Below the pieces are notes generated by a model that saw only the letters and a list, made by a program, of their open reading frames with translations, was not told the DNA's origin and did not search any database. Source: Anaerolineae bacterium (lineage in GTDB: Bacteria > Chloroflexota > Anaerolineae > Promineifilales > Promineifilaceae). Taken from it: a stretch of DNA of 34,605 nt. The stretch spans positions 1 to 34,605 of the forward strand of contig WFSA01000202.1 in assembly GCA_015486215.1 (NCBI GenBank), in the 5' to 3' direction. The position numbers were made by a program, and so were the translations under genes. This document shows positions 9,967 to 20,760 of the stretch, in pieces. Within the stretch, counting starts at the first letter, position 1. Each line of letters opens with the position of its first letter.

Positions 9967-10767
9967 TCATCTTGAACGCATTTTTATTTTTACATCATCA
10001 ATGTAGATAGTTTGAAAGAATCCTTCATCATTCTGAATAAAAAATCCAGTGACATATCTATATTCTGGATCATACAGTAATTCATCTAAACGTATCCGAA
10101 CTTCAACCCATGTCTGGGGTGGAATTGCGTTATCAAAGCCAAGAAAATATAGTTGTGTTTTGCTGAATGGTGATGGCGTATCTCCCCGATTTATAACGGA
10201 TTTATCATCTTCTACCCAGTAGGGAAAGTTGTTGCTGCCAGCCATCGTGACGATGATGCTGTTGGGGTCTATGGCGCGGTTGCCGCCATTTAACCAAAAG
10301 CTGATTTCCACAACTTCATCGCGCAAATATGGTTGGCGGCTGTTTTCGTTAATGGTAAAAAATGCCATGCCAAAATCGCGGTTGGGGGTCAGAGAAACGG
10401 CCGTGCGCCCGCCGCGTATAACATCGGTCACGTCCATCTCCACATCCATGCCCATATCTTCCTGAATAGTCCAATCTGGGTCTAAACTGTCGGCATAAAT
10501 ATCAATACTCGTCAACAACTCTCTTGTTGGTTGAGGTACAGAAGTAGGCGTGAATGGAAGCGATGTTGGTATTGGTGATGGTAATGGCTGTGATGTTGAT
10601 GATGGCTGTGATGTCTCCGCTTCAAGGATACTATTATCTGTGGCAGATGCAAATGCGGGATGCTGTGTTGGTGTTGGGAATCCCCCCGCCGGCGTAGGAT
10701 CGGCAGTTGACGTGCAACTGATGAACAGAGTGATAAGGAGAAGGGAGAAAGGTAAGTAATTACGCAT
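9967..10767 (-). CDS. Lipoprotein with a carbohydrate-binding-like domain
   Basis: Predicted lipoprotein of 266 aa. The chosen start ATG (10767) gives MRNYLPFSLLLITLFISCTS with a lipobox Cys at 18. A longer reading from 10818 would put 17 non-signal residues in front and has no support. A Pro/Ser/Thr-rich linker (about 20-80) leads to a C-terminal region with SLDPDWTIQED, VVEISFWLNGG, and IYIDDVKIKM, the pattern of jelly-roll carbohydrate-binding modules. It likely sits on the outer face of the membrane and touches the polysaccharide (inference). Its start overlaps the previous gene's stop by 8 bases (ATGCGTAA), which shows tight translational coupling. Confidence 0.75.
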   Translation of the reverse strand: MRNYLPFSLLLITLFISCTSTADPTPAGGFPTPTQHPAFASATDNSILEAETSQPSSTSQPLPSPIPTSLPFTPTSVPQPTRELLTSIDIYADSLDPDWTIQEDMGMDVEMDVTDVIRGGRTAVSLTPNRDFGMAFFTINENSRQPYLRDEVVEISFWLNGGNRAIDPNSIIVTMAGSNNFPYWVEDDKSVINRGDTPSPFSKTQLYFLGFDNAIPPQTWVEVRIRLDELLYDPEYRYVTGFFIQNDEGFFQTIYIDDVKIKMRSR

Positions 10768-12478
10768 GATAGGGGGAGAAGACGGCCGTTTTGACAGGCA
10801 GTATACCCACAAACTCATCTCTCACAAGGCAAGTTCTCGATGAAGAGAGCGGGATGATGGGTGAATTCTGAGGAACAGCCGATGTTTCAGTAATCGGTGA
10901 TGTTTCAGTAATCGGTGATGTCCCTGTAATAGGTGCCGTATTCGTAATAGACAATGTACCTGTGACCGCAGATGTGAACGTATAAAAATTGCCATTGGCT
11001 ATATTGGGTAATGATGGAGTTTGTGTCGGCGGAGCTAAAGCAGTAACGGTCACCTCCCCAAAGCTGGCATCAACATGATGAGCAAAGAGGAGGAAGGAAC
11101 CGTTTGGCGCACCCTCAAAATTGCTGCCCATAGACCATGTTGTCGGTTCTGGCTGATCTGCTTCCCAAACCTTAAAACGATACATCGATTCGGCGGTATT
11201 ATCTACAAATTCCACGTCTTCAGCGTTATTCTCCACCGTTTCCACGCGCAATTTATATATATACGAAACGCCCTCCTCCGGCGGCTCTTCCACGACGCTT
11301 TCTATGACATTATTGTTTCCTTCCAATTGCATGAAAACTAAATCTGGTAAATCCCAGCGGTATGAAGCGAATACGCCGAATGGCTGCAATCCTGATTTAG
11401 GTTGTGAGCCAGCAGTGCCTAAATCCGTATGTCCCGTCCATCTTGTCAGGAAACCGATACTAGGTACATTTTCGCTCCCGTCGATAAATTGAACCTCATG
11501 CACGGTAATCGGCACGCTTATTTCGTAATCTGTCCAAATAATATCGCCGATGGCAAGGGCGCGTTGATAGCCTGGCTTTGTAATGCGCACTTCGCCGTCG
11601 CTCATCTCCCATACCCCGTCTATAACCTCAACCATCTCTTGAATATCTTCTCCAGCCTGCCAATCAATCTGATATAGCTCATACCATTTGTTTTCGTCAA
11701 CGTAGTTGATGGTAACGGTGACAATTTCTTGAAACTGCAAGGTGTCTGTCGCGGTTAAAATTAATTCGTTCTCTCCGTCCAAAAGTGTTGTTCGGGCAAT
11801 ATCTATATTGAAATCGCCGCGCTTATCTAAACGGGATCTGTTTGGGCCTATGGAAAGCGGTATCTGTTTGGCTCCGTTGAGGGAATATGTTAATGAAAGT
11901 ATCTCGTCCAAATCAGAAACATTACCTAAGATATTGATCCATCGTTGTGGTGTGCCGTTCTGCCCGAAACTCTGCTCTGTACCGTACCACAGATCGATAA
12001 CTGGAATCTGTCTCTTTGTATCAAAAGAGGCTGTAAGCGCATCTTCTTCGTTACCGGCCATCACAATACGATAATGGTATGTTGTTTCCGCCTCTAAATT
12101 CTCCAATGTGACGGCGTGCCGCAATAAGGGCAGCTGCTCTTCTTTGTTGCCTAATTCGTACTGTTCTGTACGGCCGTAAGACAGCTTTCCAATTGCAGGA
12201 TCATCACTGCTCCATGTTATCACAGCCCTGCCATCACCTTGGATAACTTCTACATTGCTAATACGGATTCCTATTGATGTGCTGGTTGTAATGGTAGTTG
12301 TTCCCGTGATAGGCTCTATTAATTGACCATCTTCTCCTAATGGTTGATCGCCTAAAAGGGGATGGATAGTGGGCACAGACATAGGGGTTGTATCTGTACC
12401 AGTTGCATCATCTTTCTGACATCCAGCCAATACAAATAATATCCATAACAATCCAATAAATAGTATCCTCTGTTTCAT
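10760..12478 (-). CDS. Large lipoprotein with an Fn3-like domain
   Basis: A 572-aa predicted lipoprotein. MKQRILFIGLLWILFVLAGC has a clear lipobox (LAGC, Cys20). Residues about 72-155 resemble a fibronectin III / purple-acid-phosphatase N-terminal domain (ISNVEVIQGDGRAVITWSSD ... ETTYHYRIVMAG). Further beta-rich domains follow (LILTATDTLQF, DYEISVPITVHEVQF) that look like lectin/laminin-G-type sandwiches. Near the C-terminus is a low-complexity Thr/Ser/Ile/Pro stretch with repeated SPITET units. No catalytic motif is seen. It lies inside the exopolysaccharide operon and overlaps the next lipoprotein gene, so a surface-attachment or matrix role is likely (inference). It begins 38 bases after the acetyltransferase gene. 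Confidence 0.75.
   Translation of the reverse strand: MKQRILFIGLLWILFVLAGCQKDDATGTDTTPMSVPTIHPLLGDQPLGEDGQLIEPITGTTTITTSTSIGIRISNVEVIQGDGRAVITWSSDDPAIGKLSYGRTEQYELGNKEEQLPLLRHAVTLENLEAETTYHYRIVMAGNEEDALTASFDTKRQIPVIDLWYGTEQSFGQNGTPQRWINILGNVSDLDEILSLTYSLNGAKQIPLSIGPNRSRLDKRGDFNIDIARTTLLDGENELILTATDTLQFQEIVTVTINYVDENKWYELYQIDWQAGEDIQEMVEVIDGVWEMSDGEVRITKPGYQRALAIGDIIWTDYEISVPITVHEVQFIDGSENVPSIGFLTRWTGHTDLGTAGSQPKSGLQPFGVFASYRWDLPDLVFMQLEGNNNVIESVVEEPPEEGVSYIYKLRVETVENNAEDVEFVDNTAESMYRFKVWEADQPEPTTWSMGSNFEGAPNGSFLLFAHHVDASFGEVTVTALAPPTQTPSLPNIANGNFYTFTSAVTGTLSITNTAPITGTSPITETSPITETSAVPQNSPIIPLSSSRTCLVRDEFVGILPVKTAVFSPYHA
10881..10916. repeat. Tandem 18-bp repeat inside the lipoprotein gene
   Basis: Two identical 18-bp units (GATGTTTCAGTAATCGGT) encode SPITET repeats on the minus strand. 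Degenerate units follow on the right. Being in multiples of three, copy-number change would lengthen or shorten the linker without a frameshift. Confidence 0.8.
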
Positions 12479-12516: not shown

Positions 12517-13071
12517 TTATGCTTTCTGCCCTTTGATGCTGATCACTTTAGCTGGAATACCAACGGCCGTTCCCCCTTCTGGTATATCCGTGATAACAAC
12601 CGCATTCGCGCCAATCACAGCCCCGTCACCAATCGCAATATCGCCTAAAACTCTTGCGCCAGAGCTGATCACAACATTGTTGCCAATTTGGGGGAAAGCG
12701 TACTTTTTGCGTAATCCAATGGTAACAGAGGAGATGATGCTGCAATTCTCGCCCATGCGATTGACCATAATCACTGTACCGACGGGATGGGCGATATACA
12801 AGCCGCCGCCAATATCTGCGCCAGGGCTGATCTCCAAGCCGTATCGTTGATAAATCAACCGTTGTGTAAATCCGCTCATAAACGGAATCCCTTTATGGTT
12901 GCACCATGAACCGAATCTAAACCAAAGCATAGCCCGCAATGGCAGATGGCGGAAAAGCAATTTAAGGGTCGTTATTAAGCTGACAGAGGGCAGTTCCACA
13001 TCTGAAGACCCAACCCATTGCTGGTCAGGGTCTGCCCAGCGTTGTACATCTTTTTTAAATAACTCAAACAT
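12517..13071 (-). CDS. CysE-like hexapeptide-repeat O-acetyltransferase
   Basis: A 184-aa acyltransferase of the serine acetyltransferase-like group with a left-handed beta-helix. The N-terminal helical part (1-75) precedes ISPGADIGGGLYIAHPVGTV (about 81-100), where the His is the expected catalytic residue. The turns NRMGENCSIISSVTIG, GARVLGDIAIGDGAVIGANAVVITDIP and GTAVGIPAKVI follow. CysE itself is longer and lies near cysteine genes. Here the exopolysaccharide neighbours point to acetylation of a sugar. The ATG directly follows the TAA of the preceding GT2 gene with no gap (TAAATG), so it is translationally coupled. Confidence 0.85.
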   Translation of the reverse strand: MFELFKKDVQRWADPDQQWVGSSDVELPSVSLITTLKLLFRHLPLRAMLWFRFGSWCNHKGIPFMSGFTQRLIYQRYGLEISPGADIGGGLYIAHPVGTVIMVNRMGENCSIISSVTIGLRKKYAFPQIGNNVVISSGARVLGDIAIGDGAVIGANAVVITDIPEGGTAVGIPAKVISIKGQKA

Positions 13072-14061
13072 TTATTCATCCTCTGTTTGTGCCAATGTTT
13101 TGTAAAAAACAGAACGGCCGCCTAACTCATCAGCCATCCCCTGATAGTAGCGCAAGTTAAAAATACCGCTATATGCTACCCTGCTCAATGGCGGGATAGA
13201 TAGGGCTGTCCATTTTAACAGTGTAATGCTGATTTTGCTTAAAAATGGTATATCGAGACAAAGCCAAGTCACTCCTCTCACGAAGGGGTGGCGGGTTTTA
13301 TATTCGCGCATCACCGTCGGCACCAGCCAATCCTGTCCTTTTTCTACGGTGAAGATAACATCATTACGGCCGTAAGTATACGGTGTCGATATCCACGACT
13401 CAAAACTACGTACCACATAATGATACCCAATCGCCGACTCACGAAACATAAATCGCACCCCGCAATCAGCCAGCCGATACGCCAACTCCACATCTTCCGC
13501 ACGACGAAACGTGGGATCAAACCCGCCGCACTTCGTCAAAATACGACGCGCAAGCGACGAATTTCCTGTATAAAATTGACGCTCCGACGGCTCCCACTCG
13601 CCGCTGGATAAGGCTGTATACTGTTTAACCAGCATATCTTGTTCCCATTGCGTCCATGGAGAAAGTTTGACATCAAGCGGAGTCAGCATTGTCCCTAAAA
13701 CGACAATATCACCATCGTTGTTGTCATGTACCTGCATATGTTCAGCAATCAGTTCGGAAACGGGAACGACATCATCGTCAACAAAGAGAATGATATCACC
13801 CGCCGCCTCTTCTATTCCCCGATTCCGTGTCACAGACACGCCCTGATTTTCTTGGGCGATAAATGTCAAGTTCAGCGGGGTATCAAACGTTTCCAGAAAC
13901 GCATTCGTGCCATCGCTTGAACCATCAGAGACAACGACAACTTCAAATTTAGCGAGTGGATATGTCTGTTGTTCAAATCCAGCCAACACATGCTTCAAGC
14001 GATCCAGTCGATTATATGTGGGTAAAACAACGCTCACTTTATATGATTGGTTCTTATTCAT
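13072..14061 (-). CDS. Family 2 glycosyltransferase
   Basis: A GT-A fold glycosyltransferase of 329 aa. The start is taken at ATG 14061 (MNKNQSYKVSVVLPTYNRLD) rather than the upstream GTG at 14076, because the family begins close to VSVVLPTYN and GGGA lies at a suitable distance. The signatures are VSDGSSDGT (the first nucleotide-binding Asp), VTRNRGIEEAAGDIILFVDDDVVP (DDD metal-binding motif) and GGFDPTFRRAEDVELAYRL (the ED acceptor/catalytic region). The C-terminal 60 residues hold a hydrophobic amphipathic stretch that may bind the membrane. The neighbours are an acetyltransferase (no gap) and, upstream, a 268-base gap filled by two repeats. Confidence 0.9.
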   Translation of the reverse strand: MNKNQSYKVSVVLPTYNRLDRLKHVLAGFEQQTYPLAKFEVVVVSDGSSDGTNAFLETFDTPLNLTFIAQENQGVSVTRNRGIEEAAGDIILFVDDDVVPVSELIAEHMQVHDNNDGDIVVLGTMLTPLDVKLSPWTQWEQDMLVKQYTALSSGEWEPSERQFYTGNSSLARRILTKCGGFDPTFRRAEDVELAYRLADCGVRFMFRESAIGYHYVVRSFESWISTPYTYGRNDVIFTVEKGQDWLVPTVMREYKTRHPFVRGVTWLCLDIPFLSKISITLLKWTALSIPPLSRVAYSGIFNLRYYQGMADELGGRSVFYKTLAQTEDE

Positions 14062-14111
14062 TGGTATTGTTCCCACTTTGCAACAACCGTTCAGACCGTT
14101 TCTAAATGTTA

Positions 14112-14247
14112 ATCGTCCTGTAATTACTCAGCCATTGTCCAAATTAACCACAAAGACACGAAGAACATGAAGTTTTCTAAGATTTTCTTTGTGATCTTTG
14201 CTTCTTTGTGATGAAATAATTGATGGGCTGAGTAGTTACATCGTCCT
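14112..14247. mobile_element. MITE-like element, family C, with 8-bp target duplication
   Basis: The body 14120-14239 has ends GTAATTACTCAGCC and GGCTGAGTAGTTAC and an inner arm pair around ACCACAAAGACACGAAG. ATCGTCCT flanks both sides (14112-14119 and 14240-14247). It lies in the middle of the exopolysaccharide operon, between two GT2 genes. Confidence 0.88.
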
Positions 14248-14252
14248 AAACC

Positions 14253-14318
14253 TCAGGGAAGGTTCGTTTTTAACTTGGACTTTCAGGTGACAGGCACTTG
14301 GCAAGTGCCTGTCACCTT
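14253..14318. repeat. Family D element, truncated copy
   Basis: It starts AGGGAAGGTTCGTTTTTAAC and contains the 33-base palindrome centred near 14301 (AGGTGACAGGCACTTG and its complement). The other half of the element, as seen at 26456-26553, is missing. It sits 12 bases beyond the stop codon of the upstream GT2 gene. Confidence 0.7.
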
Positions 14319-14329
14319 GATAAACAGCC

Positions 14330-15238
14330 TCATATATGCTGCAACAGATTATTCACAACGCGATAATTGTCTATACAATGACGGTAACCAGCAATGGTAT
14401 AATGCCATCTCCGCATATTCACTGGAAGACGATACGGTGATTTCCATCCTTCAAAGAATTTTTGCTCCCGAGCTGCTTGTATCCACTCTTCTCCGCGCTT
14501 ATCGTTCATTAAAGTCAGTTTTCCTGCAAGTCCTCCATTACCATAAGCATACCTCTGCGAAATATGCGCCATTGCTCGAACTCCCGTACGGTATCCATAT
14601 GTATGTAACACAGTAGCATCTGGAGTAGAGGCCATTTTTACGCCCGCTGTAACTAAACGCAGTTTATAATCTGTATCTTCTGCAATTGGAAAATCTGCGC
14701 CCGGCCCTAATAATTCATCAAATGGGCCGACAAGTTCCATTGCACTACGCCGAAAAGAGACATTGCAACTAATCCAATCCCAGTCATCTGGAGGCTCTTG
14801 ATGAGTAGCTGGATCATACACATACTCAGGCGGGGCAACAAGGATAGGGCATGTTCCTAAAGCATATGATGATTTGGACGGCGGAATCACTGACCCGCTG
14901 ACTCCCCCTATATCTGGGTATCGTTCAAACCGCTCAACAATTGCTGCTAGCCAATGTTCATCTGCTTCGGCATCATCATCGGTAAAAGCGATGATTTCAT
15001 TTTTAGCAGCTCGTACACCAGCATTACGGGCGCAACTCGCACCACGCTTATCCAAATGTACATATCTTACACGCGGGTCAACGGCCGTAACAGAATCAGT
15101 CACTGCACGCACACTCGTATCGGTTCCCTGCCCAACAATAATCAATTCCCAATCCGTCCGTGTTTGACGACGGACAGCATCAATCGCCGTTCTCACGACA
15201 TTAGCACGAACTGCTGGAATAACTACTGAAACTTTCAT
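14330..15238 (-). CDS. Family 2 glycosyltransferase
   Basis: A 302-aa GT-A glycosyltransferase. It starts MKVSVVIPAVRANVV directly in the nucleotide-binding strand. It has DWELIIVGQGTD, GASCARNAGVRAAKNEIIAFTDDDAEAD (about residues 66-93, with the DDD metal site) and the acceptor-side block GPGADFPIAEDTDYKLRL (ED motif). This type adds a sugar to a lipid-linked intermediate and often has a rhamnosyl- or galactosyltransferase-like specificity, but the donor is not deducible. It lies 68 bases after the acyltransferase gene. The downstream gap to the next GT2 gene carries a family C MITE and a family D repeat, which may weaken transcription between the two halves of the operon. Confidence 0.9.
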   Translation of the reverse strand: MKVSVVIPAVRANVVRTAIDAVRRQTRTDWELIIVGQGTDTSVRAVTDSVTAVDPRVRYVHLDKRGASCARNAGVRAAKNEIIAFTDDDAEADEHWLAAIVERFERYPDIGGVSGSVIPPSKSSYALGTCPILVAPPEYVYDPATHQEPPDDWDWISCNVSFRRSAMELVGPFDELLGPGADFPIAEDTDYKLRLVTAGVKMASTPDATVLHTYGYRTGVRAMAHISQRYAYGNGGLAGKLTLMNDKRGEEWIQAAREQKFFEGWKSPYRLPVNMRRWHYTIAGYRHCIDNYRVVNNLLQHI

Positions 15239-15306
15239 AAATGACTCTCCTAACCAAAGCGGGGCATTTAAGTCCCATTAAAAGTGAAGAATTAAGCAAA
15301 TCATTT

Positions 15307-15843
15307 TCATAATGATCTAATTACTTTTGCCGGAATACCTGCTGCTACCGAACGTGGCGGAATATCTTTAGTTACGATGCTTCCAGCACCGATCACGCTG
15401 TCTCTTCCAATCGTTACACCACGCAACACGATCACTCGGCCGCCCAGCCAAACATTGTCTTCCAAAATAATGGGGGCTGATTCTGGCTTTTCATTACGTC
15501 GATCTGGCTCCAGTCGATGAAAATCATTATCCATCATCATAACATGCGTGCCTATATTACATTCAGCACCAATCCGTATTAATTTGTCGGCCGAAATTGA
15601 ACAGCCATAATTTATAAATGTGCTTTTACCAATTTCCAGCAGGCCATTCTCGCCAGCAGATAGTTCCGTTGTGGCAATAGTAGACACCAGTCGTACACGT
15701 TCACCGATCACCATCCTGCCCTCGTTATGGATAGCTGGTTTGCCCCAAATACGTACTTTTCTTCCTAATTCAGCTTTACGAAAGTACCAATAGGCACGCA
15801 AAAGTGCCCAGCCGCTATTCCAGATATATATTAATTGTCCCAT
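15307..15843 (-). CDS. WbbJ-like hexapeptide-repeat acyltransferase
   Basis: A 178-aa left-handed beta-helix acyltransferase. [39 protein letters not shown] (probable catalytic His in the DNDFH element) and [20 protein letters not shown] followed by [14 protein letters not shown] are successive hexapeptide coils. [10 protein letters not shown] is the classical end. It probably acetylates a sugar of the repeat unit. Purine-rich GAAAAGAAGA just before the ATG serves as a weak ribosome site. Its upstream gap (15844-16216) contains a 223-bp mobile element, which separates it from the previous acyltransferase gene. Confidence 0.87.
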
Positions 15844-15969
15844 TCTTCTTTTCTATCCCAGCTTCTATGCAAAACCTTCATAACTATGAAATTCATATTC
15901 TTATTTGAAAAACGGATTTCTATCTTCACAGGGGGTGACAAATCAAAGCCAATCTGTTTTCCAAAATAG

Positions 15970-16208
15970 GTATAAACGTAACTTCTTAATAAATCGTGGA
16001 CAAGACTTGGCAAATTTCATCAGCACTTTATTTTACACGAGTATCATTAGGAAAATTTGTCAAGTCTCCCCAGAATACTGAGAAGATACGATGAAAGAAA
16101 TAAACGGATGGTGCAGTCGAGAAAATATCCGTTCATTTTCATAATCCGCTGTAGTCGTACTAGAAACAAAACAATTTCCCCATTTTTTTTGAGAGGATAC
16201 GTATAAAC
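15970..16208. mobile_element. MITE-like composite element (family B + A-like half) with 8-bp target duplication
   Basis: GTATAAAC flanks the element on both sides (15970-15977 and 16201-16208). The first 112 bases (15978-16089) are a family B copy, running from GTAACTTCTTAATAAATCG to GAATACTGAGAAGATAC. The second part (16090-16200) is an A-like palindrome with arms around AAACGGATG and CATTTTCATAATCCG, ending GAGAGGATAC. One pair of target duplications encloses both, so they moved as a unit or one inserted exactly at the edge of the other. Confidence 0.82.
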
Positions 16209-16216
16209 CTTAAAAC

Positions 16217-16783
16217 CTATGAGAAATATTTTTCATCCTCTGATTCTCTAACTTCTAACTCTCTTTTTACAACTGCTGGTACACCAGCCACCAATGTATT
16301 AGGTGGAACATCTTTGATCACGACAGATCCAGCAGCAACAACGGCTCCTTTGCCTATTGTCACGCCCGGCATAATAGAGCAGTTTGCACCTATCCATGAG
16401 CCATCCTCAATATAGATAGGTTCTGGTGCAAGCGTGCCTGCTCGGCGGAATGCTTCACCTATTTTATGTGCGCCAGTTATCAATGTTGCACGGGAACCAA
16501 TAACGACATGATCTCCCATAATGATAGGAGCGGCCAGATCAAAAAAAATATGGGCACTAATCATACCATACTTGCCAATAGTAAATCTCTCGGTGCCAAT
16601 AATTATTGGCATTCTACAAATGAGTGTGCCGTGCCCAACCTGAAATCCAATCAAACGAAAGACAGTGGCTCGGAAGCGGCCGCCTGTGTATGCAGGAAAT
16701 GGTAGAACTAGTAATCGTGCTAATAACCACCGCCAGCGAATGTTGCCAAACTCTTCTTGGATAAGTTGTTGAAATTTTTGCAT
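16217..16783 (-). CDS. Hexapeptide-repeat acyltransferase
   Basis: A 188-aa WcaF/maltose-O-acetyltransferase-like protein. An N-terminal helix with [20 protein letters not shown] (about 16-37) precedes the beta-helix coils [39 protein letters not shown] (probable catalytic His near 105), [20 protein letters not shown] and [13 protein letters not shown], closing with [13 protein letters not shown]. It is the second of three such enzymes in the cluster, which suggests a heavily acetylated polysaccharide (inference). It follows the polymerase gene by 18 bases. The 3' end is 9 bases from the MITE target duplication. Confidence 0.87.
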
Positions 16784-16801: not shown

Positions 16802-18361
16802 TCATTCATTAAAAAGGGGAAGTAATCCTGATGGCGGCAGGGGATCTGGTTGCCAAGACCATCGTTTATGTTTTATGGGGATGGGTTGATCAACGATATA
16901 TTCCATCCTGTTTACGAAGCCAAGCATCACGCCTAAATATACCATATTTTGAACATTCCATGACATATCAACATAAGCGTAGATGAAGTGCATGACGATG
17001 TATAAAACGGCCGTTGCCGCAATCGCGCTCATATCATCATGCGGCATACGCCACAAGACGCGGATACCCAGCGTGATAGAGATGCCGACCAAAAACATCA
17101 TAGTAAAGAAGCCGCCAACACCCGTCTTCATCCATACCCATGCGATTGAATTATGGGTAATAAATTCCCACCATACAAAAGTACTAATATCTGGTAAGGT
17201 AACCAACATATAAAACGGCTGCCCGAAACCGATTCCCGTTAATGGTCTTTGGTGAATAGTGTAGTTGGAATTTATATTTTCCAAGTCACGGTACACATTT
17301 GAAGAACGGTCAGCTTCACTTGCATCATCTTCTGCAATGATAGATTTAATCGCCTGAGCAGGAAGCCCAATTGCCCCGCTGCTATTCCAAAAGGCACCCA
17401 AATAGAGTATGCCAACGATCCCGACTATTGGCATAATCACAAAAAAGACCTTGCGGCTTTCTTGGTATAAAAACACAGCCATAAAGGCTAATGCTATAAA
17501 CAAAGCGACAAAAGCAGCACGGCGCTGGGTGGCTAAATAGGTTAAAAAAACGGGTGGGATCATAAAAGGCAAAATAAACCGCTTTGCCCATGATCCTTTG
17601 TAAAGCCATACTGCGGCGGTAAAAACAAACAACGTGTTCATATGAATGGCCGCTGAATGTTCTGTAATGTCCTCTACTAGACTTAAATCTCGTCCTAACT
17701 CAACGAAATAAATATATACTCCCATAAATCCCTCTAAACAGAGGGCGATCATAGCCACCCACATTAAATTGCTTACATGCTCACGTTTGGTAAAGAGATT
17801 GCTGATCAAAATGAGGAGCATCGGCATATAAAATATAGAACGTGCAGACCATAGAGCTGTATTAAGATTCCCCCCTGTGCCAATCCCATAAACCAGGCCA
17901 AAGGCGACGAAGGTGACGAAGGATAAAGTCGGCCAAAATAGATCGCCCTTATAAAATTTTAAGTTGCGCTGCATAAAGGCGCGGCCTAACCATGAAGCAA
18001 AGGTGAGGGTTAGATAAAACTCTAAAGGGCTGAAAATTACTGCATTATGCAGGAAAAGGAGGGTTTCGTTGCTGGAGAAGTTTTTGTTGAATGGGTACCA
18101 TGGCATCATCACAAAGTCGCCGGCAAGGGAAAAAAAGACTATTAGATAAATACCGTAACGCGGTTCATATATGATGACAATGATACCAATCAAATATAGT
18201 AGCCAACTGATGGTCGAGAAGCTGGCGGTAAAGAGGTACATAGCCAATCCGACAACGGCCGTTACCCCCATCAATACCACAAACCATAACAGCCAAACAA
18301 TGTCAGATCGTGTTTTTTGCGAAGGTGCATTTTTCAAACTGCTATTCGTAGCAAATGTCAT
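16802..18361 (-). CDS. O-antigen ligase/Wzy-like polymerase
   Basis: An integral membrane protein of 519 aa with about eleven hydrophobic segments from residue 24 onward. They include LLWFVVLMGVTAVVGLAMYLF, WLLYLIGIIVIIYEPRYGIYL and, late, a large outer loop containing RSSNVYRDLENINSNYTIHQ and RPLTGIGFGQPF followed by ITHNSIAWVWMKTG. The PLTGIGFG...HNS pattern is the signature of the Wzy_C (O-antigen ligase) superfamily. It would polymerise or ligate repeat units on the outer face of the membrane. The start is ATG 18361, not the TTG three bases before, because the ATG overlaps the stop of the preceding 47-aa gene (TGATG). Confidence 0.87.
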   Translation of the reverse strand: MTFATNSSLKNAPSQKTRSDIVWLLWFVVLMGVTAVVGLAMYLFTASFSTISWLLYLIGIIVIIYEPRYGIYLIVFFSLAGDFVMMPWYPFNKNFSSNETLLFLHNAVIFSPLEFYLTLTFASWLGRAFMQRNLKFYKGDLFWPTLSFVTFVAFGLVYGIGTGGNLNTALWSARSIFYMPMLLILISNLFTKREHVSNLMWVAMIALCLEGFMGVYIYFVELGRDLSLVEDITEHSAAIHMNTLFVFTAAVWLYKGSWAKRFILPFMIPPVFLTYLATQRRAAFVALFIALAFMAVFLYQESRKVFFVIMPIVGIVGILYLGAFWNSSGAIGLPAQAIKSIIAEDDASEADRSSNVYRDLENINSNYTIHQRPLTGIGFGQPFYMLVTLPDISTFVWWEFITHNSIAWVWMKTGVGGFFTMMFLVGISITLGIRVLWRMPHDDMSAIAATAVLYIVMHFIYAYVDMSWNVQNMVYLGVMLGFVNRMEYIVDQPIPIKHKRWSWQPDPLPPSGLLPLFNE

Positions 18362-18504
18362 CAAAACGCTCGTCTAAGAAAATAAAAGGAGAGGATTACC
18401 GCCACGACTCCGCCCACTACGAATATCCGCAGAGCGGGTGGCTGCCGCCATAATAGTATACCCAGTATAAATGTGATGCCTAAAAAGCCAAGCCAAATAG
18501 TCAT
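18361..18504 (-). CDS. 47-aa two-helix membrane peptide
   Basis: A short gene that starts MTIWLGFLGITFILGILLW and ends VVAVILSFYFLRRAF. It has two hydrophobic segments (about 4-18 and 27-42) separated by RQPPALR, with an Arg-rich C-terminus placed inside by the positive-inside rule. It begins 10 bases after the stop of the CpsD-like gene, and its TGA overlaps the ATG of the polymerase gene by one base, filling an otherwise odd 150-base gap. I see no Shine-Dalgarno sequence, so it may be translated by coupling. The function is unknown. It could assist the polymerase or be the vestige of a larger Wzz-like protein. Confidence 0.6.
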   Translation of the reverse strand: MTIWLGFLGITFILGILLWRQPPALRIFVVGGVVAVILSFYFLRRAF

Positions 18505-18514
18505 TATATTGCGA

Positions 18515-19237
18515 TTAATGTTGGGGAATAAGCTGTAACAATGCGGATGGTGTGTGTAAATGCACCTGATTCATAATAACGCCTATGATAGAGAGATGAT
18601 CGATACTATCTAGGGAGGTTTGTGCGTCTCCAAGCTGGGTTGCACCTTGATGTATAATCAAACAGGCATCATCGCTTAATGATGCTAAGGGGATGACATC
18701 GCTACATGTGGAAATAGCGGGAATATCAAGCAGTATATGGTCAAATTTCTGCTCCAATTGATTAATCATCTCTTTTAGGCGTGAGCTTCGGGAAAGTATA
18801 GATCGCTTTTCTATATCCATATCCCCAGCAGGCAATAATGCCAAATTGGGGAATTCTGTCTGGACAAGTGCATCTTCTAGCGGGGTATCGTCAATTAAAA
18901 CGGCCGCTGCTCCCCCTTTCTCTGACAGCGAGGCAAATATCTCTGACGGCCGTTGCCAATTCAACTCCACAATACAGACAGTCACCTCCATATCATGCGC
19001 CATTGTCGCCGCCAATGCTTGCGTCAAGTAAGAGACCCCTTCTTGCTCTAGCGAAGCCACCATAGACAATCGTGCAGGGAATGGCTTATTACGGGCGGCA
19101 TGTGCCACCATGCGCCGGAATGGAGCGATGGCTTCAATAGGAAAGGATATAATCTGCGTGCCATCCTGCGCAGTCAACACAATTGCAGGAAGGGTGTCCT
19201 CATTTTTTTGCTTTCTAAAACGTTGCCATATTTTCAT
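18515..19237 (-). CDS. Degenerate CpsD/BY-kinase-like P-loop protein
   Basis: A 240-aa protein whose order of elements follows the bacterial tyrosine kinase / CpsD ATPases. The Walker A position reads ASLEQEGVSY (61-70) where relatives have a GEGKS-type loop, so the essential Lys is replaced by Val. The Walker A' position reads IVELNWQRP (89-97) in place of the usual Asp-containing IDADLRRP. Walker B (DHILLDIPA, 166-174) is intact. No C-terminal Tyr cluster is present. The protein is therefore probably unable to hydrolyse ATP normally and may be a structural or regulatory partner of the Wzx/Wzy export machinery. It lies 14 bases after wzx and 10 bases before the small membrane gene. Confidence 0.75.
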   Translation of the reverse strand: MKIWQRFRKQKNEDTLPAIVLTAQDGTQIISFPIEAIAPFRRMVAHAARNKPFPARLSMVASLEQEGVSYLTQALAATMAHDMEVTVCIVELNWQRPSEIFASLSEKGGAAAVLIDDTPLEDALVQTEFPNLALLPAGDMDIEKRSILSRSSRLKEMINQLEQKFDHILLDIPAISTCSDVIPLASLSDDACLIIHQGATQLGDAQTSLDSIDHLSIIGVIMNQVHLHTPSALLQLIPQH

Positions 19238-19251
19238 CGTTTCTCTTTTTT

Positions 19252-20760
19252 CTATCCAGCCGATTCTGTTTCACGCCTGAGTACTCGATTCAAAATCCGC
19301 TCGGCCACCCCGCGAAGCAAAAGCAAATCTTCTTGAGGGATAACCCGCAGAAGAAGAATCATCGCTATATAAACAATGCCGCCAACTATAATGGGAACGG
19401 CAATAAATATGTCTTGCAAAAACCAAACGGCCGTTACCATCACCAAGCCGGCAATAAATATGCGTACAGTCGTCCACACATTCGACCATCCCAGCAACCC
19501 TTTGGGCAGCACGTACAAACCAGCGATCATCATTCCGCCTTCTGTGATAATAAAAGCCAATGATCCGCCAATCGCGCCATTGCCAAATGCTTCTTGACAC
19601 CATGGAACTAGCAGTAAGTCCAATGGAATCGTTGCTGCGGTTGCCACGGCCATAATGATGGTCAATATCTTTTGTCGGTCAACTGAAATAATAAAGCTCC
19701 CCAACAGCATATTTTGATATGTCAAGATAAGAACGATTCCCATCACTGATAAGACAGGGCCGCTATTGATTAGTTCATCCCCAAAAAGCAATAGAACGAC
19801 AGGAGTAGCGATAACCATCACCCCTAACCCTATGGGGACACTAAGCAGCATCAAAAAATCGAAGCTCTTACCCATCATATTGCTCAATACACTTTGATCA
19901 TTTTCTCCATTATCTTCACTGCTGTCGGCATGTAATCGTGTTAAAGCGGGGAAGACGGCCGTCATAAAAATAGAAGGGATGAACATAAGTGTGGCAAACA
20001 GCCCGTCAGCCGCACCATACCACCCTACAACTTCTTCTTCAGCAAGTAACGAGATAATCACAATATCAAGTTGTATGTAAACAACTGCAAAAACAGAAAC
20101 TAAAAAGTAGGGGAAACTTTCTCGTATAATTTTTTTGGTCACCTGCCAATCAAATTTAATATGAATGGGATGCAATCTCTTCAAATATGCTCTTTGAATA
20201 AACAGTCCAATAATGCTTGAAGTCACCACAACAGCACTGATAACGAGTATCCCCTTACCTAAAAACAGCAAGACCAAACCAACCACAGTCAGAAATGTCT
20301 TACTGATAATATCGGACAACGAGACATATTCCATGCGCTCTAACCCTTCTAATGCGGCTCGGCTGGTGCCAGTTAATAGTAAGAAGAATCCAGAAATCCC
20401 TATGATGAAGATCACAGTGACTGTTTCGACTTCATACCCGGCAAATTGAACATACAGAGCAACAAAACCGAATGTTAAGGAAAAAATGACGGCGCGGAAT
20501 ATAAGAATAGCTCCGTATACCTCTGATAATTTCTCTGGACGACGGGCAACTGCTTTGACCAGATAGGTATCCATACCAAAAGTGGCGAATACTCCTGCCA
20601 TAGCCCAAATAGAGTTGGCTAAATGAAATTGCCCAACGGCAGTCGCGCCCAATATACGCGGCAAATAGACCATCAAGGCGAGTGTCAAACTCCATGTGAT
20701 TAGTTGAGATGCCATTAGCACAGTGGCATTCTTGGCAATTGTTTTTCCAGTTCCATTCAT
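19252..20760 (-). CDS. Wzx-like polysaccharide flippase
   Basis: A 502-aa membrane protein of the polysaccharide transporter group (MOP/MVF superfamily). Its roughly 14 hydrophobic helices begin at LMASQLITWSLTLALMVYL (about 15-33). The N-terminal signature RILGATAVGQFHLANSIWAM is typical for the family: a loop with G-AVGQ-F, as in Wzx and RfbX proteins. It flips lipid-linked repeat units across the membrane before Wzy polymerises them. The long loop around DSSEDNGENDQSVLSNMMG separates the two bundles. ATG at 20760 is followed by a second in-frame possibility only far inside. It starts 176 bases downstream of the PlsC-like gene. That gap carries a small palindrome (20862-20925) and may hold a promoter I cannot define. 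Confidence 0.9.
   Translation of the reverse strand: MNGTGKTIAKNATVLMASQLITWSLTLALMVYLPRILGATAVGQFHLANSIWAMAGVFATFGMDTYLVKAVARRPEKLSEVYGAILIFRAVIFSLTFGFVALYVQFAGYEVETVTVIFIIGISGFFLLLTGTSRAALEGLERMEYVSLSDIISKTFLTVVGLVLLFLGKGILVISAVVVTSSIIGLFIQRAYLKRLHPIHIKFDWQVTKKIIRESFPYFLVSVFAVVYIQLDIVIISLLAEEEVVGWYGAADGLFATLMFIPSIFMTAVFPALTRLHADSSEDNGENDQSVLSNMMGKSFDFLMLLSVPIGLGVMVIATPVVLLLFGDELINSGPVLSVMGIVLILTYQNMLLGSFIISVDRQKILTIIMAVATAATIPLDLLLVPWCQEAFGNGAIGGSLAFIITEGGMMIAGLYVLPKGLLGWSNVWTTVRIFIAGLVMVTAVWFLQDIFIAVPIIVGGIVYIAMILLLRVIPQEDLLLLRGVAERILNRVLRRETESAG

Follow-up and report, generated by a model that had tools for sequence, protein, structure and literature searches.

The question raised by this locus is what a protein related to the BY-kinases does in a Wzx/Wzy gene cluster when its catalytic residues have been replaced. 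The window, by which we mean the whole analysed stretch of 34,605 nucleotides (contig WFSA01000202.1 of the Anaerolineae bacterium assembly GCA_015486215.1), encodes such a protein at 18515..19237 on the minus strand, the strand of all window features given below. The gene starts with ATG and its product has 240 amino acids. A sequence-only reading had described it as a CpsD-like ATPase devoid of the Walker A lysine and the Walker A' aspartate, with ASLEQEGVSY and VELNWQRP as replacement motifs and with Walker B retained, and an alignment with BY-kinases agrees with this description. The degenerate Walker A motif, ASLEQEGVSY, occupies residues 61-70 (19028..19057) and brings Val68 to the position of the lysine. 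The degenerate Walker A', VELNWQRP, occupies residues 90-97 (18947..18970), with Glu91 and Asn93 at the two aspartate positions, and Asp171 is retained in the Walker B motif, FDHILLDIPA, at residues 165-174 (18716..18745). The doubt had been raised that some other loop might supply the lysine; no substitute lysine was found within or adjoining the Walker A loop. At the C-terminus, the tail TPSALLQLIPQH (18518..18553) stands in the alignment where the tyrosine cluster is expected, and the final 30 residues contain no tyrosine. Of the EX2RX2R ring motif, the first arginine alone is present.

The assignment of this protein to a family was considered from profiles and from its predicted fold. Its best NCBIfam matches are BY-kinase models (TIGR03018 at 6e-23 and TIGR01007 at 3e-17), all under their cut-offs, and the sole Pfam model above cut-off is BcsQ (PF06564, 27 bits against 21.3). 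An AlphaFold2 model was computed with 36 natural homologues as the input alignment (pLDDT 87.5, pTM 0.83). Its top match in VIA-align is CapA1B1, with a Z of 25.2 and 2.0 A over 196 residues, followed by VpsO (24.6), CapA2B2, CapAB and Wzc (about 24 for Wzc). The BY-kinase folds thus rank first with Z values of 21-25, compared with 14-17 for MinD/ParA (about 17 for MinD) and 14 for BcsQ (BcsRQ entry 6yar, Z 14.2). Foldseek concurs with this ranking, and a profile search of the PDB sequences returns CapA1B1 at 4e-22. Since the BY-kinases outrank both MinD and BcsQ by fold, the modelled protein is placed in the BY-kinase family, as a member with neither the catalytic motifs nor the tyrosine tail, and the earlier worry that structural alignment might reveal a different family is answered. 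The BcsQ identity was rejected in spite of the Pfam score, because its fold ranks lower and the neighbours of the window gene are wzx, wzy, glycosyltransferases and acetyltransferases, which is not a cellulose-synthase setting. An identity as MinD/ParA was rejected on the fold ranking together with the gene context.

We refer to the family as class P. A search of the order (56 genomes, the window's included) gave 16 orthologues at E values of 2e-48 or less, with a gap below them. The class was extended beyond the order by a pattern scan of named genomes and by profile searches of the class and the phylum, and it was also found in Chloroflexus, Oscillochloris, Kouleothrix, Candidatus Viridilinea, Ardenticatenaceae and Thermoflexales. 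The named-genome scan relied on two patterns, one of which includes the degenerate loop, and is therefore uninformative on whether the lysine is universally absent; the whole-genome scoring searches did recover lysine-bearing relatives, as more distant groups. In a tree built by a quick method with the Walker columns removed, and in which the root was not inferred, class P forms one clade (SH-aLRT 99).

The motif counts refer to 49 distinct class P sequences, from 74 reads. None has the Walker A lysine, whose position is taken by Val in 46, Thr in 2 and Leu in 1. The Glu-Gly of the loop is present in all 49, as are the Walker B aspartate and the Ser/Thr after the lost lysine, at the Mg-binding place; in 42 sequences a Tyr comes immediately after this Ser/Thr. 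At the first Walker A' aspartate position, Glu is found in 42 sequences and Asp in 7, while the second aspartate is Asn, followed by Trp, in 49/49. The EX2RX2R motif retains its first arginine in every sequence, its second in none and its glutamate in 1/49, so that an octamer formed through the usual interface is not expected. Any one of the 49 has at most one tyrosine in its final 30 residues. From these sequences we infer that class P would carry out no tyrosine phosphorylation.

Loss of catalytic residues is also the expected outcome in a gene decaying toward loss. This explanation has almost no credit with us, as the substitutions are fixed in 49/49 sequences, 31 columns are invariant among the order's 16 homologues, and the gene order is maintained from Anaerolineae to Chloroflexus and Oscillochloris. 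Local decay is therefore rejected, and the substitutions constitute a fixed substitute motif, EGV[TS]Y...NW. The designation of the window gene as a pseudo-BY-kinase is in this way backed by its sequence, by conservation across the family and by the fold.

The pseudokinase gene does lie between wzx and a small membrane gene, as had been read from the sequence. The wzx flippase gene (19252..20760, 502 amino acids; PF01943 at 5e-33, and NF041871 Wzx_EPS at 3e-35, under its cut-off) ends 14 nt before the pseudokinase gene, and 10 nt separate the end of the latter from a gene for 47 amino acids. Next is wzy (16802..18361, ATG start), a polymerase gene of the O-antigen ligase/polymerase family (PF04932 at 1e-8, and NF041870 Wzy_EPS at 4e-25, under its cut-off). 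The cluster continues at 12517..16783 with acetyltransferases and family-2 glycosyltransferases, and many relatives likewise have homologues of these genes following in that region. Two lipoprotein-like genes, for 572 and 283 amino acids, are located at 9967-12478; the 283-amino-acid one is repeated in many class P clusters and has no Pfam match. Across the loci, the recurring set consists of a PCP, Wzx, the pseudokinase, a microprotein of about 47 amino acids with two TM segments, and Wzy, and the recurrent order is wzx-P-wzy in Anaerolineae and PCP-P-wzy in Chloroflexia. In one genome (G007), the reading frame of Wzx runs on from its C-terminus into class P, giving 872 amino acids with no stop, which is weak support for an association of the two, since with an assembly coverage of 1.99 the stop may have been lost by sequencing error. 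The presence of the altered kinase throughout the phylum in one gene block suggests, at the level of sequence, a polymer machine that may run with no kinase activity from class P.

The PCP upstream in class P loci has 320-430 amino acids (more in one genus), two TM segments and a start like MVRLVLLRLLESYFRHRWLYLLPI. PF02706 (Wzz) matches 10 of 19 such proteins, and the model of one of them (pLDDT 80, pTM 0.60) resembles Wzc, KpsE and WzzE. After TM2 there is a conserved tail, LDRSLRFPxDVxxGLxLPVLAxVP, to which some proteins add a variable stretch; a kinase domain is absent. In one genus, the PCP is extended at its N-terminus by a stretch that contains an Mrr_N (Mrr N-terminal) domain (L164:6280-8445, L165:6675-8459). 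Among the 56 genomes of the order, all 16 with class P encode the PCP, compared with 0/40 of the others, and in 14 of the 16 the two genes share a contig. The sequence-only reading had called for a Wzz protein to be looked for elsewhere in the window's genome, and a Wzz-type PCP was indeed found there outside the operon, on contig C131; it is 58% identical to the PCP of another class P genome (G017). Contig C131 also carries a gene for an initiating-type sugar transferase and, immediately upstream of the PCP gene, a partner-switch group made up of STAS, SpoIIE-type phosphatase and HATPase genes (L051, G000 contig C131, 14341-18068). This group hints that phosphorylation control of a different kind may operate close to the pathway.

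The complete co-occurrence with the PCP within the order also bears on the idea that class P is a positioning factor of the MinD/ParA kind, which would position the Wzx/Wzy machine at the membrane and would not dock on a PCP. MinD is the next fold after the BY-kinases, and the class P tail terminates in a short hydrophobic segment, TP-x-x-x-x-x-x-IPQ. Nevertheless, the BY-kinases score well above MinD, and when a MinD-like C-terminal membrane helix was looked for, the tail was not clearly amphipathic (mean shuffle rank of the hydrophobic moment 0.27). Taking the co-occurrence into account as well, we regard a positioning factor as a very improbable explanation.

The 47-amino-acid microprotein with two TM segments is encoded at 18361..18504, and its TGA stop overlaps the wzy ATG by one base (TGATG). 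An ORF of this kind follows the pseudokinase in 35/35 loci, the window included. In a second set of reads, some of whose genomes overlap the first set, it is present in 23 of 24, the remaining read having no sequence there. Of 13 pairs, 9 have a usable dS, with a dN/dS of about 0.06 to 0.30, and the other four are saturated; the microprotein is under purifying selection. Its profile matches 14 of the 56 genomes, all of them class P genomes and all at a place adjoining class P (14/16 class P genomes against 0/40 others). A fifteenth match has internal stops and was discarded as spurious. In the two class P genomes missed by the profile (G007 and G047), the microprotein is present by position. 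The loop between the TM segments has a net positive charge in 33/35 and a negative charge in none; positively charged loops face the cytoplasm according to the positive-inside rule, and the basic loop therefore suggests a location on the cytoplasmic side. No Pfam family is above cut-off for the window's microprotein, and across 14 members no family matches more than 2/14, all of these matches being weak. The alternative that the region contains an RNA structure instead of a gene was rejected, as no signal was obtained (z 1.1).

The more distant relatives that retain the lysine come from other Chloroflexota, with profile matches at E 1e-27 to 1e-31, and are referred to as group Q; the grouping has no support of its own in the tree. 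The Walker A lysine is present in 6 of the 8 distinct group Q proteins that were read. For example, the protein of G728 retains the lysine, yet it already has GEGKSY and ECNW. The group Q proteins are also devoid of the tyrosine cluster, and hence, in the sequences compared, the loss of this cluster is wider than that of the lysine. A two-TM PCP-like gene is directly upstream in 7/8 group Q loci, with no match in the short contig of G565. Downstream of the kinase-like gene, 6/8 loci have a wzy-like gene and L217 has a wzx-like gene; in the remaining locus the contig ends. A hydrophobic ORF of 43-49 amino acids directly follows the kinase-like gene in 7/8 loci and is absent in L217. In L218 the gene finder called an opposing frame across the kinase-like gene. 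One group Q locus (L221:2441-4948) encodes an 836-amino-acid fusion of Wzx with a family-2 glycosyltransferase.

That these relatives from the same kind of gene block keep the lysine speaks for a nucleotide-binding switch with no catalysis, in which the Mg-nucleotide state would alter the grip of class P on the PCP. The invariant Ser/Thr at the Mg-binding place, Walker B aspartate and loop Glu-Gly agree with such a switch, and the titles of PDB entries list Wzc K540M with MgADP, so losing the lysine need not abolish binding. On the other hand, both Walker A' aspartates are changed in the window gene, the second being Asn throughout the family, and with the Trp that always follows this Asn and the Tyr after the Ser/Thr in 42/49, the pocket looks rebuilt, not merely weakened. 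We therefore consider the switch unlikely.

Whether an active kinase is encoded elsewhere was examined in the window's genome, for which the assembly is 96% complete in 341 contigs. Only two proteins pass an E value of 1e-12 for TIGR01007, namely class P and a CpsD protein on contig C196 that belongs to a paralogous class, class S. The class S gene (L049, G000 contig C196, 2368-3069) adjoins two Wzz-like genes, and its product has DDGAVET as the Walker A loop, with no lysine, and Ser at the position of the Walker B aspartate. The remaining matches are taken by us to be ParA/MinD/Mrp/CpaE-like from their sequences and motifs. No intact BY-kinase was thus found, although the missing 4% of the genome could hide one. 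The sequence-only reading had expected an arrangement without tyrosine phosphorylation unless an active paralogue existed elsewhere; the one other BY-kinase-scoring protein is altered at both sites, and the arrangement is supported as far as the sequences indicate. A search for a Wzb/CpsB-type phosphatase in this genome found no CpsB_CapC protein, and the one LMWPc protein, on contig C126, looks from its Cys pattern like an arsenate reductase.

Over the order, 42/49 class S proteins keep the Walker A lysine. It is lost in 7/16 class P genomes and in 0/33 others (Fisher p 1.3e-4, with ancestry ignored); on the tree there are only three losses, each in a class P genome, a number with which a sign test cannot reach significance. 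This hints that the loss of the class S lysine is tied to the presence of class P. It was suggested for CapB1 with CapB2, in the available part of PMC3795738, that a BY-kinase-like protein regulates an active partner, and class P could likewise regulate an active BY-kinase elsewhere. Most other class P genomes do encode BY-kinases above the family cut-off, and those that were read are mostly intact. However, no intact BY-kinase was found in the window's genome, and the confinement of the class S lysine losses, of which only three are independent, to class P genomes is the opposite of what dependence on an active class S partner predicts. We judge this explanation very unlikely.

We account for these observations by a different role. 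According to the available part of PMC12004946, EcpK of Myxococcus xanthus is a BY pseudokinase proposed as a scaffold for EpsV, a kinase-less PCP that it binds in two-hybrid assays, and HfsB of Caulobacter crescentus is a BY pseudokinase stabilising the kinase-less PCP HfsA in a Wzx/Wzy pathway. Since the anatomy of class P and its partner match EcpK and HfsB, we infer by analogy that class P is probably a phosphorylation-independent scaffold for the kinase-less PCP, working with Wzx, Wzy and the microprotein. It would dock on the cytoplasmic tail of the PCP, like CapB on CapA and, as proposed, EcpK on EpsV. Once docked, it would have a structural or adaptor role, bringing the PCP, Wzx and Wzy together at the membrane with no tyrosine phosphorylation. 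The microprotein, with its basic and probably cytoplasmic loop, may be an extra subunit that joins the complex of PCP and class P to Wzy. As class P would be a natural lysine-less state, any cycling would have to come from elsewhere, and the microprotein is a candidate source.

A broader proposal, which we put forward tentatively and hold to be possible but doubtful, is that the Chloroflexota have a polymerisation machine of their own that is not driven by tyrosine phosphorylation. It would comprise the PCP, a BY-kinase-like subunit, an obligate two-TM microprotein of about 47 amino acids and Wzy. The lysine of the kinase-like subunit would be kept in some lineages (group Q), whereas in the window's lineage ATP handling would have been lost and the pocket rebuilt into EGV[TS]Y...NW as a fixed binding surface. 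The microprotein would couple the PCP and the pseudokinase to Wzy, in part replacing phosphorylation control. If this is true, the microprotein, which is outside Pfam, represents a new polymerisation subunit.

When compared with the known systems, a BY pseudokinase paired with a kinase-less PCP is a kind that has been published since 2025 and was foreshadowed earlier, according to the available part of PMC12004946. Our literature search, in which EcpK and HfsB surfaced and subscription literature was thinly covered, met no report of the Chloroflexota family, its fixed motif, the microprotein or the lysine-bearing relatives. The novelty lies in the substitute motif and its conservation, in the microprotein and in the occurrence of lysine-bearing relatives in the same gene block; the kind itself is already known. 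The strict substitute site, together with relatives that keep the lysine, opens the question of what ATP adds to comparative testing, and class P members carry species or strain names in several cases, for example Chloroflexus islandicus and Oscillochloris sp. ZM17-4.

As described in the accessible part of PMC12004946, EcpK/EpsV resembles the class P system in that the pseudokinase is a stand-alone protein with no catalytic residues and no tyrosine tail and belongs to a Wzx/Wzy pathway with a kinase-less PCP. By the same description, EcpK is set apart from class P by the absence of all three Walker motifs and by a basic C-terminal helix; class P, unlike EcpK, keeps the Walker B aspartate and the fixed EGV[TS]Y...NW, adjoins wzx/wzy and has a microprotein partner. 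HfsB/HfsA is of the same kind (pseudokinase, kinase-less PCP, Wzx/Wzy), but HfsB comes from another phylum and no such microprotein is mentioned in the portion of its account in PMC12004946 that was available. With CapB1/CapB2-CapA of Staphylococcus aureus, class P shares the fold and the bipartite PCP-2b arrangement, but CapB has the catalytic Lys55, EX2RX2R and the Y-cluster (PMC3795738, in part), and class P has lost each of them. Wzc of E. coli has the same fold as class P, but it is fused to its own PCP and cycling is required, as stated in the available parts of PMC8285477 and PMC11986026. In particular, Wzc K540M is a non-phosphorylated, lysine-less octamer, and phosphorylation cycling is reported there to be necessary for capsule (PMC8285477, in part); the lysine-less state is thus artificial in Wzc K540M and natural in class P. 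The studied PCP-2 cases without a tyrosine phosphorylation cycle that we found are EcpK and HfsB, and to these class P adds a phylum-wide case that is defined by sequence.
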